A DNA stretch of 57,881 bases from Acidobacteriota bacterium (GTDB lineage: Bacteria; Acidobacteriota; Vicinamibacteria; Vicinamibacterales; CAVVIG01), in the NCBI GenBank assembly GCA_003222535.1, contig QHWJ01000334.1:1-57881 (forward strand). Reading direction: 5' to 3'. Both the position numbers and the translations under genes were made by a program. The first letter of the stretch is position 1, and every line of letters begins with the position of its first letter. Positions 41,130 to 46,429 of the stretch are shown here, in pieces. The notes under the pieces are model-generated. The model made no database searches. It was not told the DNA's origin and worked only from the letters and a program-made list of their open reading frames with translations.

Positions 41130-42455
41130 TCAACCATCGCGTTCCTGGAGATGGATCGGATCGCGCGGAGCACGGCGCCCGGCGACTGGACAAACTGACC
41201 CGCGCGTAATTGGGGTCGCGACACGCCGATAGATCTCTTCGAGCCGTGCGGCGATGCTGCGGCAGTCGTAGTCACGCGCGCGCGCAGCGCCGCGGGCTCC
41301 GAGGAGACGGCTGTGCGGCCGGTCGTCGAGCAGCGGGCAGAGCGCTGCGGCGATGGCGTCGGCGTCTGCCGGCGTCACCAGACGTCCACAGTCGGCGCCG
41401 CCAACAAGCGCCTCGTACCCGTCGATGCGGCTCGCGACGATCGCGGTACCGGAAGCCATCGCCTCGAGCAACACGACGCCGAAGCTCTCCCCGCCCAGCG
41501 CGGGGGAGCAGACGACGTCGGCGGACTGGTAGTATGCGGGCAGATCCTCGTCGGCGACGCGACCGCAGAAGTGCGCCGCGGCACCGAGGTCGGCCGCGAG
41601 CCTGGTCAGCCGCGCGCGATCGGCGCCCTCGCCGATGACGAGCAACGTGGCGTCGCGCACGCGCTGTTGCACGAGCGGCATCGCGCGGATCAAGTACTCG
41701 ACCCCTTTGCGCGGCTCCAGCCGGCCGACGTACAGGACGATGCGCCGGTCCGCCGGCATGGCCCCAGGCCGTGGCCGTGGGATGCGAAACGTATCCGTGT
41801 CGATTCCGTCCGGCACAATCTCGTACTCGGCGGGGAAGTGCGCGGCAACGGTACGTCGCGCGGCGTCGGACACCGCGACTCGCGCGCGCAGCCGGCGCGC
41901 AAGCGGCTGAAGCGCCCACCCCCACGCCGCGTAGAGCCGATGACCATCTTCCCGATGCACGTGGAACGTGCCGACCAGCGGCGCGTGCGCGCGCATGAGC
42001 ACCATCCAGGGCACGAGCGGCGTCAGCGGTTCGTGGATGTGGACGACGTCGAACGCCCGCTGCAGGAGGCGGCCGACGGCTCGCAACGCGCGAGGGTCCA
42101 CGCCGAGCCCCGATTCAGTTCCACCGAGCGTCACCGCGACGGAGCCGCCGAGCGACAGCTCGCCCTCTTGAAGGGGTCCGGACGCCGGCCCGGCGACCTG
42201 GACGACGTGTCCGAGGCCTCGCAGGGCCCGGGCCTGTGCACGGATCTGGTTGTTGATCCCGCCATCAGCCGACAAATCGTAGGGCGCGATGATCGCGATC
42301 CGCAGCGGGCGATTCGGCGACCCTGAAAGGGTCGCCCTATGTTCATCGTTCGGCGACGCTGAAAGGGTCGCCCTAGGTTCGTCCTTCCCCGTGCGTTCGT
42401 CGTTCTGCGACGCTGAAAAGGTCGCCCCAGGTCCGTCGATCGGAGGCCCCGTCAT
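41130..42455 (-). CDS. GT4 family glycosyltransferase (PimB/mannosyltransferase type) with repeat-expanded N-terminus
   Basis: 441 residues. The GT-B fold begins at RIAIIAPYDLSADGGINNQI, followed by VHIHEPLTPLVPW, VPDGIDTDTF, YVGRLEPRKGVEYLIRAMP and the EX7E motif region GGESFGVVLLEAMASGTAIV. The C-terminal VCPVAGRRAPRDPIHLQERDG may be extra. The ATG overlaps the upstream stop (ATGA). Residues about 9-49, between this start and the first strand, consist of three translated CTTTCAG palindromes (ATFSASQNDE, ATLSASPNDE, ATLSGSPN). GT4 enzymes use GDP-mannose or UDP-sugars; it probably adds a sugar to a lipid or glycan. Confidence 0.88.
   Translation of the reverse strand: MTGPPIDGPGATFSASQNDERTGKDEPRATLSASPNDEHRATLSGSPNRPLRIAIIAPYDLSADGGINNQIRAQARALRGLGHVVQVAGPASGPLQEGELSLGGSVAVTLGGTESGLGVDPRALRAVGRLLQRAFDVVHIHEPLTPLVPWMVLMRAHAPLVGTFHVHREDGHRLYAAWGWALQPLARRLRARVAVSDAARRTVAAHFPAEYEIVPDGIDTDTFRIPRPRPGAMPADRRIVLYVGRLEPRKGVEYLIRAMPLVQQRVRDATLLVIGEGADRARLTRLAADLGAAAHFCGRVADEDLPAYYQSADVVCSPALGGESFGVVLLEAMASGTAIVASRIDGYEALVGGADCGRLVTPADADAIAAALCPLLDDRPHSRLLGARGAARARDYDCRSIAARLEEIYRRVATPITRGSVCPVAGRRAPRDPIHLQERDG
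42316..42431. repeat. Three CTTTCAG palindromes in frame at a gene start
   Basis: Copies GGCGACCCTGAAAGGGTCGC, GGCGACGCTGAAAGGGTCGC and TGCGACGCTGAAAAGGTCGC are spaced about 40-50 bp, joined by variants of GTTCGTCGTTC. Their translation accounts for most of the N-terminal tail of the GT4 gene. Confidence 0.88.
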
Positions 42456-44452
42456 GGTGCGGTGGCCGAGCATCGCCGGCCGGACGTGGACAGAACCTCG
42501 GCGTAATTTTCGATGAGGTATCGCGAGTGGGCCTGCCACCGCTTCCCGATTGCCTCGAGCGTCGTGGCCAGCGCCTGATGGCTGCTCGACACGTCAGCGC
42601 GCTCGTCCGGATCGTGCTCGACGTCGAACAGCTCGTTGACGCCCGTCTCCCCCCAGTGGACCAGCTTCCACCGGCCCGCGCGCACGCCTACCTGCGACAG
42701 CGGCGGCCGCGTCGCGAAGATGACGACGCGCGGCGCGCGTCCGCGCGTGAGATCGCGTCCCTTCATCGTCGCGGGCGGCTCGATTCCGAGCAGGCCGAGC
42801 AGCGTCGGCGCGATGTCGATGTGTCCGGTCGGCAGCGTGACCGCGCCGGCCGCGCCGGCGAGCTGAGGCCCCGTCACGACGAGTGGCACGTGCACCGACC
42901 CCTCGTAGATCGACGCGTCGCGGATCCGTCCCATGCCCGCGCGCCCGGAGCCGGGACCGTGATCGGAGGCAATCGCGATGAGCGTCGAGTCGAGAAGATT
43001 CTGCCGCGTGAGCCCGGAGACGAGGTCGCGGAGCCTGTCGTCCACGAAGCGGAACGTCGCCCGCTGCGCGGCCGTTTCCGCGTCGCGATCGAGCCACCGT
43101 TCCGACGGTGACCCCGGGTACTCGAACGGGTGATGGCCCGCGGCCATGTTGTAGGCGGCGAAGAACGGCCGCTCGGGATGCTCCCGGCGCTGGCGCGCGA
43201 TCCAGTCGAGCGTTGCGCGCACCGTGACGCGCTCGTCGAGACCCCACGCGTTTTCCCACGCGCCCTCACGGCCCGGCATGTCGTTGCGGTCGGCCATGAA
43301 ATCGATCCGGCGGTGCCGGAGAAACCGAATCTGTCGATCGAAGGCGAAGTCGGCCGACGTCAGGAGCGCGGTATCGTAGCCGGCCGCCTTCAGCGCTTCC
43401 GTCAGGCTCACGCACGGAATCGCCGGGTTCACGTACGTGATCGGGGGGTAGTCCGGGTGCGGCAGCTCCGAGCACCAGATGCTGAACGCCGCCTTCATCG
43501 TCTGCGCCCAGTGCGTGTAGTGATTCTCGAACCGCACGCCGCGAGACGAGCGCCCGATCTCCTCGAGAAACGGCATCGGCGTGGGAGCGCCCGCGGAGGC
43601 CGCCAGGCCGCGAGCGCTGATCGATTCGAGGATCACCAGCAGCAGGCTGGTTTTCCCCGGCGCAGCCGTGACGAGCGGATTGCCGCCGTCAACCGGCACG
43701 GGCGAGCCGAGATCGAAGCAATACGGATCCGCTGGAACGGGATCACCCCTCCGCAGCGCGCGCAGCGGTCCTCGCAGGTAGGACGCGGCGAGCATCGTCA
43801 GCGGGCTGCGTTCCAGACCGAACGTGTGAACGGCGAGCAGACCGTTGGCGAGTCCCGGAACGGCGAAAAGCGTCAGCAGCACGAAGGTGCAGAGCGCCAC
43901 GACGGTTCGGCGGCCGACGACGCGATCGACGTCGTGGCGCCGGAGCAGCCAGACGAGCAGCGCGGGTGCGAGCACAACCACGACGATCGCTTCGATCCTG
44001 AACGTGGGCGTCAGGTACGGCGCAACCGAATCAGTCATCGGCGTGCCACTTCGGCCGGGCGTGGCGTTGTACAGAAACAGAAGGTCGATGGCGGCCTTAT
44101 CGAGCGGCGCGCCGACGACCAGCGCGACGTGATAGCTGACGAGGAGGAACGCGGCGTAGATCGCCTGCGCGGCCATCGACCATGCGACCGCCAGGCCGGG
44201 CAGCCGGAATGGCAGTGGCGCTGCAACGAGCGTGGCGATCGCCGCGACGATCGCGGCCGACAGCACATCCCACCCAAGGCACAGCAGGATGCGCGGCCAT
44301 ATGAGCAGTGCGGATGTCGCCCCTTCGGCCCCTGACGCCGCGTACTCGAACAACGCGGCCTTGAAGACAAGCGTGGCGGCGAGCGCGGTGAGGAAATTCG
44401 CGACCGCCAGCGAGGTGGCGCGCCCGTCAACTCTCAACGGGTCAACTCTCAA
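42452..44452 (-). CDS. Membrane sulfatase-fold protein (LTA synthase/phosphoethanolamine transferase-like)
   Basis: 666 residues. Five to six N-terminal helices, then the alkaline-phosphatase fold: LLLVILESISARGLA (metal-binding Glu), HYTHWAQTMKAAFSI (nucleophile Thr/Ser region), ASDHGPGSGRAGMG (Asp/His) and VHVPLVVTGPQ. The last 60 residues resemble sulfatase C-termini (RAGRWKLVHWGETGVNELFD). The TTG start sits in a TTGAGAGTTGAC repeat. It and the GT4 gene overlap by 4 nt and form an operon. Confidence 0.85.
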   Translation of the reverse strand: MRVDPLRVDGRATSLAVANFLTALAATLVFKAALFEYAASGAEGATSALLIWPRILLCLGWDVLSAAIVAAIATLVAAPLPFRLPGLAVAWSMAAQAIYAAFLLVSYHVALVVGAPLDKAAIDLLFLYNATPGRSGTPMTDSVAPYLTPTFRIEAIVVVVLAPALLVWLLRRHDVDRVVGRRTVVALCTFVLLTLFAVPGLANGLLAVHTFGLERSPLTMLAASYLRGPLRALRRGDPVPADPYCFDLGSPVPVDGGNPLVTAAPGKTSLLLVILESISARGLAASAGAPTPMPFLEEIGRSSRGVRFENHYTHWAQTMKAAFSIWCSELPHPDYPPITYVNPAIPCVSLTEALKAAGYDTALLTSADFAFDRQIRFLRHRRIDFMADRNDMPGREGAWENAWGLDERVTVRATLDWIARQRREHPERPFFAAYNMAAGHHPFEYPGSPSERWLDRDAETAAQRATFRFVDDRLRDLVSGLTRQNLLDSTLIAIASDHGPGSGRAGMGRIRDASIYEGSVHVPLVVTGPQLAGAAGAVTLPTGHIDIAPTLLGLLGIEPPATMKGRDLTRGRAPRVVIFATRPPLSQVGVRAGRWKLVHWGETGVNELFDVEHDPDERADVSSSHQALATTLEAIGKRWQAHSRYLIENYAEVLSTSGRRCSATAP

Positions 44453-44522
44453 GTCTCAACGTTCAGTCTCAACGCTGACAGTGAGCCTTGACTTGAGCCC
44501 TGAGCCTTGAGCCCTGAGCGCT
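44430..44522. repeat. Word-like repeat between divergent genes (TCTCAAC and TGAGCCC words)
   Basis: TCAACTCTCAAGTCTCAACG is repeated on the left and TTGAGCCCTGAGCC on the right. The array contains the TTG starts of both the sulfatase-fold gene and the Kup gene, so both may use repeat-derived start regions. Confidence 0.8.
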
Positions 44523-46429
44523 GTGAGTGGCGTGGCACGAGGAAACCGGATGTTAGCATAGGCATTCTGGGCACGCGACGCCGCTCACACTTCCTGCTCC
44601 TCGCCGCGCTGGGTGTCGTTTTCGGCGACATCGGCACCAGCCCGCTGTACGCGCTGCGCGAGTGCTTCGACGGCATTCACGCGATTCCCGTCTCCACCGC
44701 CAACGTGCTCGGCGTCCTGTCGCTCATTGTCTGGTCGCTCGTCATCACCGTGTCGGTGAAGTACGTGCTGTTCGTGATGCGCGCCGACAACGGCGGCGAG
44801 GGCGGCATCCTGGCACTCGTCGCACTGGTGAGGAGCAAACCGGGCGTGTCGTCCCGCCGTGCGCTGATCGCGATCGGCCTCTTCGGCGCGGCGCTGTTGT
44901 ACGGCGACGGCATGATCACTCCGGCGATCTCCGTCCTGAGCGCCGTCGAGGGGCTGAGCGTCGCGACGCACGTCTTCGAGCCGTTCATCGTGCCGATCAC
45001 GGTCGTCATCCTCATCCTGTTGTTCGTCCTCCAGCATCGCGGCACCGGCGGCATCGGCGCCATCTTTGGGCCGGTCATGGTCGGGTGGTTTCTGACGATC
45101 GCACTGCTCGGCCTGCCGCCGATCGTCCGCAAGCCGGACGTCCTCTCCGCGCTGAACCCGTGGTACGCGTACACGTTCTTCGCGGCGCACCGGTTCGGGG
45201 CGTTCGTCACGCTCGGATCGGTCTTTCTCGCGATCACCGGCGCCGAGGCGCTCTACGCCGACATGGGACACTTCGGAATCGGGCCGATTCGGACCAGCTG
45301 GTTCGTTGTCGTGCTGCCGACGCTCGTCGTCAATTACTTCGGCCAGGGCGCGCTGCTGCTCGCGAGGCCGGAGACCGCTGTGAATCCGTTCTTTCACCTG
45401 GCACCGGCGTGGGGACTCTATCCGCTCGTGTGCCTGTCGACGATGGCGGCCGTGATTGCGTCGCAGGCGATCATTTCCGGTGCCTTCTCCATGACCCAAC
45501 AGGCCGTGCAGCTCGGCTACTCGCCGCGCTTCGACATCCAGCACACGTCGGCGCACGAGAAGGGACAGGTGTACATTCCGGAGATCAACTGGCTGCTGAT
45601 GGCGGCGACCGTCGGCCTCGTGCTCGGCTTCCGCTCGTCGACCAACCTCGCCGCGGCGTACGGCATGGCCGTGACGGCGACGATGGTGATCACGACAATC
45701 CTGGCGTATGTCGTCGCGCGCGAGCAGTGGCGCTGGAGCGTCTGGCTCGCGGGGGGAGTGGCGGCGGCGTTTCTTTCGATCGACCTCGTCTTCCTTGGCG
45801 CCAACCTGATCAAAATCCGGCACGGCGGGTGGTTCCCGCTGGTCGTCGCGGCCGCGGTCTATGCGGTGATGTCGACCTGGAAAAAAGGCCGCGAGCTCGT
45901 CGTCGAACGGCTCCACGCGACCGAAGTACCGCTCGACGCTTTCTTTCGCCAGCTTGCGTGGCAGCCACCGGTGCGCGTGCCGGGCACGGCGGTCTTCATG
46001 ACGGCGCGGTCCGAAGGAGCGCCGCCCATCCTCGTCCACCATCTCAAGCACAACAAGGCGCTTCACCAGCAGGTCGTGCTGTTGACCGTGTCGGTGCTGA
46101 ACACCCCGTCAATCGGCGATGAGCAGGCGATCGAAGTCAACCCGGTGGGCGCGGGATTCGTCAGGGTGATCGCGCGGTTCGGCTTCATGGAGTCGCCCGA
46201 CGTGCTGTCAGCGCTCGCGAGCGCGCGTGAGCACGGTCTCGACTGGCGCGACGAGGACACGACGTTCTACCTGGCGCACCTGACGCTCCTCGCTGACGCG
46301 GGCCTCGGCATGTCGGCGTGGCGGGACAACCTCTTCATCTTCCTGTCGCGCAACGCCCGGCGCGCCACGAGCTTCTTTCAAATCCCCGCCGACCGGGTCG
46401 TCGAGATCGGCATTCAGATGGAAATCTGA
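44507..46429 (+). CDS. kup: Kup-type potassium uptake protein
   Basis: 640 residues, twelve membrane helices. LLLAALGVVFGDIGTSPLYA, RADNGGEGGILALVALVR, GDGMITPAISVLSAVEGL and FGQGALLLARPETAVNPFF are hallmarks. The soluble C-terminal domain follows from about residue 450. It transports K+ with protons. No ATG exists before the first helix; a TTG within the repeat (44507) or a downstream non-ATG codon must serve. Confidence 0.93.
   Translation: MSPERCEWRGTRKPDVSIGILGTRRRSHFLLLAALGVVFGDIGTSPLYALRECFDGIHAIPVSTANVLGVLSLIVWSLVITVSVKYVLFVMRADNGGEGGILALVALVRSKPGVSSRRALIAIGLFGAALLYGDGMITPAISVLSAVEGLSVATHVFEPFIVPITVVILILLFVLQHRGTGGIGAIFGPVMVGWFLTIALLGLPPIVRKPDVLSALNPWYAYTFFAAHRFGAFVTLGSVFLAITGAEALYADMGHFGIGPIRTSWFVVVLPTLVVNYFGQGALLLARPETAVNPFFHLAPAWGLYPLVCLSTMAAVIASQAIISGAFSMTQQAVQLGYSPRFDIQHTSAHEKGQVYIPEINWLLMAATVGLVLGFRSSTNLAAAYGMAVTATMVITTILAYVVAREQWRWSVWLAGGVAAAFLSIDLVFLGANLIKIRHGGWFPLVVAAAVYAVMSTWKKGRELVVERLHATEVPLDAFFRQLAWQPPVRVPGTAVFMTARSEGAPPILVHHLKHNKALHQQVVLLTVSVLNTPSIGDEQAIEVNPVGAGFVRVIARFGFMESPDVLSALASAREHGLDWRDEDTTFYLAHLTLLADAGLGMSAWRDNLFIFLSRNARRATSFFQIPADRVVEIGIQMEI

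Follow-up and report, generated by a model that had tools for sequence, protein, structure and literature searches.

An in-frame array of GTAG-tagged REP palindromes, probably translated as a disordered N-terminal tail, in a PimA-like glycosyltransferase gene of an Acidobacteriota bacterium

The 57,881-nt contig QHWJ01000334.1 of an Acidobacteriota bacterium (assembly GCA_003222535.1), referred to below as the window, carries a glycosyltransferase gene with three short palindromes between its start codon, which is coupled to the preceding gene, and the first strand of its GT-B core. The locus raises the question of how such repeats came to stand in an open reading frame, whether they are translated, and whether the enzyme uses the resulting peptide. 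The kind of event is already known. Rickettsia palindromic elements (RPEs; Ogata et al. 2000, 2002) are described in passages of PMC10969869 and PMC2229807 as lying in frame in functional genes, and the main text of Di Nocera et al. 2013 (PMC3733652) reports GTAG-tagged REPs with copies inside genes, including DnaE2. The present array is an unusually clear case of this kind, and its features are collected in Table 1.

Table 1. Features of the glycosyltransferase locus, with positions in the window
Feature	Position	Strand	Remark
PimA-like GT4 family glycosyltransferase gene (assigned by similarity), 441 aa	41130..42455	-	ATG start within ATGA overlap
Sulfatase-family gene, upstream of the glycosyltransferase gene	42452..44452	-	4-nt overlap with the glycosyltransferase gene
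KUP-type potassium transporter gene, divergent	44507..46429	+	Named from sequence; adjoins the glycosyltransferase gene in G014 and G017
Lineage-specific N-terminal extension, 50 residues	42306..42455	-	Orthologue comparison and predicted model
CTG (Leu51), candidate non-canonical start	42303..42305	-	Several orthologues have a TTG, GTG or ATG start here
REP copy 1 (GGCGACCTTTTCAGCGTCGCA), degenerate, read GATFSASQ	42406..42426	-	5' tag CTGG instead of GTAG
REP copy 2 (GGCGACCCTTTCAGCGTCGCC), read RATLSASP	42352..42372	-	5' tag CTAG
REP copy 3 (GGCGACCCTTTCAGGGTCGCC), perfect consensus, read RATLSGSP	42316..42336	-	5' tag ATAG

The ATG of the glycosyltransferase gene (42455-42453) and the stop codon of the sulfatase gene (42454-42452) form an overlap that reads ATGA, and among the called genes of this genome the 4-nt overlap of this type is by far the most frequent close junction, with 41 cases. 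The encoded protein, whose N-terminus reads MTGPPIDGPGATFSASQNDERTGKDEPRATLSASPNDEHRATLSGSPNRPLRIAIIAP, has a GT-B core made up of the Pfam domains Glyco_transf_4 and Glycos_transf_1, with which the predicted model agrees. In the comparison with PimA (PDB 2gej/2gek, GT4), the whole core was aligned from residue 48 (E 3e-62), whereas the N-terminal tail had no counterpart in the alignment. The EX7E region was conserved, with E323 and E331 being invariant. Judged from its sequence, the enzyme belongs with the PimA-like GT4 glycosyltransferases, and by the same similarity it may transfer mannose to phosphatidylinositol.

Re-reading of the locus confirmed what the initial annotation had stated about three in-frame palindromes between the coupled start and the first GT-B strand, including their coordinates, their frame, and their spacing by multiples of three (54 nt and then 36 nt between cores). 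Its description of all three as CTTTCAG repeats held for copies 2 and 3, which have the exact core, copy 2 with one change from the consensus in its stem; copy 1, however, has TTTTCAG, a broken end, and a damaged stem. The tags CTGG, CTAG, and ATAG of the three copies are decayed. As a single strand, copy 1 folded no better than shuffled sequence (z -0.9), and the stretch holding copies 2 and 3 folded well (z -3.5 against shuffles). The derived reading SAS is common to copies 1 and 2, and GAACGAYGAAC is common to the spacers of the array, which suggests that copies were duplicated locally and then drifted. The idea that the spacer belonged to a longer mobile unit was rejected, as GAACGAYGAAC adjoins none of the other REP copies in the sample described below. 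Across the window, CTTTCAG occurs 15 times against 2.95 expected, a count reached by none of 100 shuffles.

The repeat is widespread in this genome. Throughout the 8.06-Mb assembly, the 21-mer pattern gave 150 forward and 147 reverse matches at no more than two mismatches and none in the control read backward; because the pattern is nearly self-complementary, this corresponds to about 150 sites. With 60 relatives compared, the pattern was abundant only here and in G009, a member of the same family but of a different genus; 1 to 11 matches were found in a few others and none in most. A census was then based on 1.52 Mb of the 8.06 Mb, a sample enriched for copy-bearing contigs, in which a home-made gene caller relying on codon usage assigned 84% of the sequence to genes. 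In this sample, the stem-aware scan detected 84 copies in which the core is exact and six or all seven of the stem pairs are present, and none in the reversed control. The 5' tag before the stem was GTAG in 74 of the 124 stem-scored copies, and GTAG with the hairpin occurred 78 times, compared with 1-31 times for eight other tetranucleotides. The consensus GTAGGGCGACCCTTTCAGGGTCGCC forms a 9-bp stem with the three-base loop TTC (-11.2 kcal/mol as DNA, z -7.5); the stem variants GGCGACG, GGCGAGC, GGCGAGG, and GGCGGCC remain self-complementary, and REP pairs in opposite orientation (+-) are mostly 22-28 nt apart. The view of these repeats as intergenic in type was borne out, since 91 of the 126 sampled copies lay outside called genes, 29 lay inside about 20 genes, and 6 straddled a gene end. 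Random placement would put most copies into genes, and the binomial tail against it is about 5e-45, a value calculated from non-independent copies in the enriched sample. Given its tag, short palindrome, copy number, intergenic bias, and opposite-orientation dimers, the CTTTCAG repeat is a GTAG-tagged REP. Two further GTAG hairpin families are present in the same genome, one of which adjoins its only Y1_Tnp transposase gene.

As described in the main text of Di Nocera et al. (PMC3733652), the GTAG REPs of 2013 share with the present family the tag at the foot of the hairpin, the high copy number, the mainly intergenic location, and the opposite-orientation dimers, as well as in-frame copies, error-prone DnaE2 included, and grouped repeats coding for tens of residues. 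They differ from the present locus, where a direct triplet stands at a coupled N-terminus and no canonical start follows it. Neither the CTTTCAG family nor its lineage was found in that main text. RPEs likewise are palindromes in frame in unrelated genes that yield similar peptides and are mostly tolerated, according to the descriptions in PMC10969869 and PMC2229807; by these descriptions they measure about 100-150 bp, against 25 bp and a GTAG tag here, and no sequence relation is claimed.

REPs of this kind would have been spread by a RAYT-type transposase. The single Y1_Tnp (RAYT-like) gene, in L122 (G000:C216), is flanked by GTGG-tagged CCGGCTTCAGCCGG repeats, which constitute a second REP family; its pattern was matched 47 times in the 1.52-Mb sample. 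The genome thus shares with known REPtrons a Y1_Tnp gene beside its REPs, but for the GTGG family; no RAYT gene with CTTTCAG-family REPs on its flanks was found in the assembly, which is 95.5% complete. We rejected the Y1_Tnp gene as the cognate RAYT of the array, as it adjoins a different REP family.

The N-terminal tail had been described as 40 added residues, but the extension before the first strand comprises about 50; ATLSASPNDEHR is part of it as translated from the ATG. In the predicted model, most of the core, the first beta strand of which occupies residues 52-56, had a pLDDT above 90, against about 34-48 for residues 1-40; the tail is predicted to be disordered and to lie outside the GT-B core. 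A true start after the repeats, which the initial annotation had named as evidence to the contrary, was excluded for ATG, GTG, and TTG by codon-by-codon reading. None of these codons occurs in the stretch from the repeats to the first strand, and the next in-frame canonical start after 42455 is a TTG at 42275, within the conserved PYDLSADGG motif. Because no ATG, GTG, or TTG separates the array from the first strand and the 4-nt overlap is the commonest close junction, translation likely begins at the ATG and passes through the array. Since the RATLSGSP frame of the repeat has no stop, chance alone could account for a reading frame that stays open across the array.

Conservation of the tail, the other point on which the initial annotation could have failed, was not seen when the gene was aligned with its orthologues. 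The tail was absent from eight orthologues at 53-61% identity whose start is clear; they have 0-12 residues ahead of the core, and several of them begin exactly at the Leu51 position with ATG, GTG, or TTG. In a ninth orthologue (G025), the previous stop leaves room for no more than about 21 residues, and there is neither a repeat nor a canonical start. In G011 and G012 the starts are coupled (GTGA and ATGA, respectively) and lie about nine codons before PLRI, the Leu at the same position is not the start, and the upstream gene is other than the sulfatase gene. In G014 and G026 the glycosyltransferase gene precedes the sulfatase gene and begins at the Leu51-equivalent residue, and in G014 and G017 the KUP transporter gene is the divergent neighbor of the glycosyltransferase gene. 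The order in the present genome is KUP, sulfatase, glycosyltransferase, so that the latter two are swapped with respect to G014 and G026 (window 41130-46429, L308, L008), and the REP array lies exactly at the resulting lineage-specific junction. For this reason, capture of a repeat-bearing spacer when the glycosyltransferase gene came behind the sulfatase gene is no less likely than insertion into coding DNA, and we favor it. The earlier wording that the repeats were colonising a coding region fits their in-frame reading in this gene and in some 20 others; as to insertion into coding DNA, the swapped gene order allows for a captured spacer instead. The tree of the glycosyltransferase core did not separate the relatives around this genome or pick out the nearest one, and in G012 the two genes are on separate contigs, with the sulfatase gene at a contig end, so that a site without the array is not readable there. 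The relatives included no repeat-free genome of this genus in which the state before the array could be seen. Between the KUP and sulfatase genes (window 44420-44520), short and degenerate tandem tracts (TTGAGCCCTGAGCC / TCAACTC type) were observed, at the opposite end of the rearranged block from the REP array.

The 29 copies inside genes were confined to the four stop-free frames of the element, RATLSGSP, VGRPFQGR, GDPERVAL, and ATLKGSPY (with counts of 8, 8, 9, and 4 for the four frames), a restriction partly forced because a called gene must be open. In about 10 genes the copies are interior, so the choice of start is irrelevant. These genes include an error-prone DNA polymerase (1224 bits against a cut-off of 939), an Lhr-type helicase, a penicillin-binding protein 1C, an acetaldehyde dehydrogenase, an AmiC-type amidase, an AddB-like nuclease, a hydroxybenzoyl-CoA reductase beta-like subunit, and an ABC exporter. 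In the genes compared with orthologues, the in-frame copies were missing from the counterparts, as in RPE-like protein-coding palindromic insertions. Orthologue alignments of four genes (error-prone polymerase, Lhr, aldehyde dehydrogenase, and amidase) placed the REP peptides in variable linkers, and the ABC exporter, when aligned with PDB 5mkk_B, had an insertion with the REP peptide at residues 460-503, in the nucleotide-binding domain. In-frame copies within genes lie mostly in inter-domain linkers and termini. The spacings of same-orientation copies within genes (33, 36, 54, 54, and 54 nt) were all multiples of three, with the exception of a same-direction pair in L195, 32 nt apart, whose gene call is doubtful. 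In G009 the same pattern was seen more rarely: of 62 copies sampled there, 3 lay in genes. A second REP array at an N-terminus was noticed in L174 (10190-11170), where a PhzF-family protein carries GRDPERFGDAERSGDPERSGDPERVAL in frame, preceded by a short N-terminal segment and followed by the domain.

We consider it probable, though by no means certain, that a GTAG-tagged REP array at a new junction was captured as a spacer and is translated as a tolerated, disordered tail of about 50 residues. Members of the REP family would have built up a small direct array by local duplication, and the glycosyltransferase gene would have come to lie directly behind the sulfatase gene with the array at that junction. 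Ribosomes would then reinitiate at the ATGA overlap and translate the array in its stop-free RATLSGSP frame, by which the enzyme would gain its tail while the GT-B core would stay untouched. The alternative that the REPs truly inserted into an existing coupled N-terminus of about 10-12 codons and were duplicated in frame seems distinctly less probable to us, though it deserves to be taken seriously. The coupled starts of G011 and G012, about nine codons before PLRI, resemble MTGPPIDG...NRPLRI here, and interior insertions into existing coding regions are clear in other genes of this genome; against this, the gene upstream in G011 and G012 is not the sulfatase gene, and G014 and G026, with the gene preceding the sulfatase gene and starting at the Leu51 position, point to a lineage-specific coupling in which the gap may once have been spacer.

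Whether the array is translated at all bears on both of these readings. CTG can start translation, and if the enzyme started at the CTG (42305), the REPs would form a structured leader that may affect mRNA stability or translation. The RNA of the array region does fold better than shuffles (z -2.6), orthologues start at the same position with TTG, GTG, or ATG, and, as the main text of Di Nocera et al. (PMC3733652) cautions, many apparent N-terminal REPs are extragenic, as translation starts downstream. We nevertheless regard such a start as unlikely: no purine-rich site precedes the CTG, the corresponding Leu codon is not the start in the coupled orthologues G011 and G012, and the in-frame ATGA overlap and an ORF open through three copies would have to be coincidence. 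CTG starts are also rare. A tail kept by selection, for example for membrane contact, oligomerisation, or regulation, is very improbable. PimA-type enzymes work at membranes, and the three units hold the frame and yield similar peptides; the tail, however, is absent from all orthologues and predicted to be disordered, copy 1 is decaying, and the same element gives four different peptides in unrelated proteins. No sign of the tail being used was found. Because the element is read in all four open frames in about 20 genes, mostly in linkers and termini, the captured tail would be tolerated rather than selected.

With about 20 in-frame REP insertions in four frames of one genome, tolerance of extra residues can be separated from selection for a peptide. 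The recurrence in the error-prone polymerase, the Lhr helicase, and the AddB-like nuclease agrees with the statement in the main text of Di Nocera et al. (PMC3733652) that repair genes are often hit by GTAG REPs. For annotation, the warning follows that peptides coded by repeats can be mistaken for conserved motifs.

In the Lhr linker (L182 7392-11780; L250), two REP families stand side by side, with VRLKPDAT next to RATLSGSP, and the same linker of the G009 Lhr contains EKGSYPFSAEKGVRPLFPE, apparently a further palindrome that is read in frame. A broader reading, on which we place little weight, would be that REPs in this lineage are a steady source of disordered protein segments, entering linkers and termini in any of the four stop-free frames that suits; that, as the Lhr linker suggests, different repeat families have independently struck one and the same linker in different genomes; and that arrays mark or promote gene-order junctions at which repeat and coding DNA are then fused, as in the sulfatase-glycosyltransferase pair. 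Other simple in-frame repeats at protein ends or in linkers, such as QPSAISPQPSAITISPQPSALSH and QKSEVRSQKSEVRSERAEVRS, were observed in L186 (10349-12454) and L198 (1-2472).
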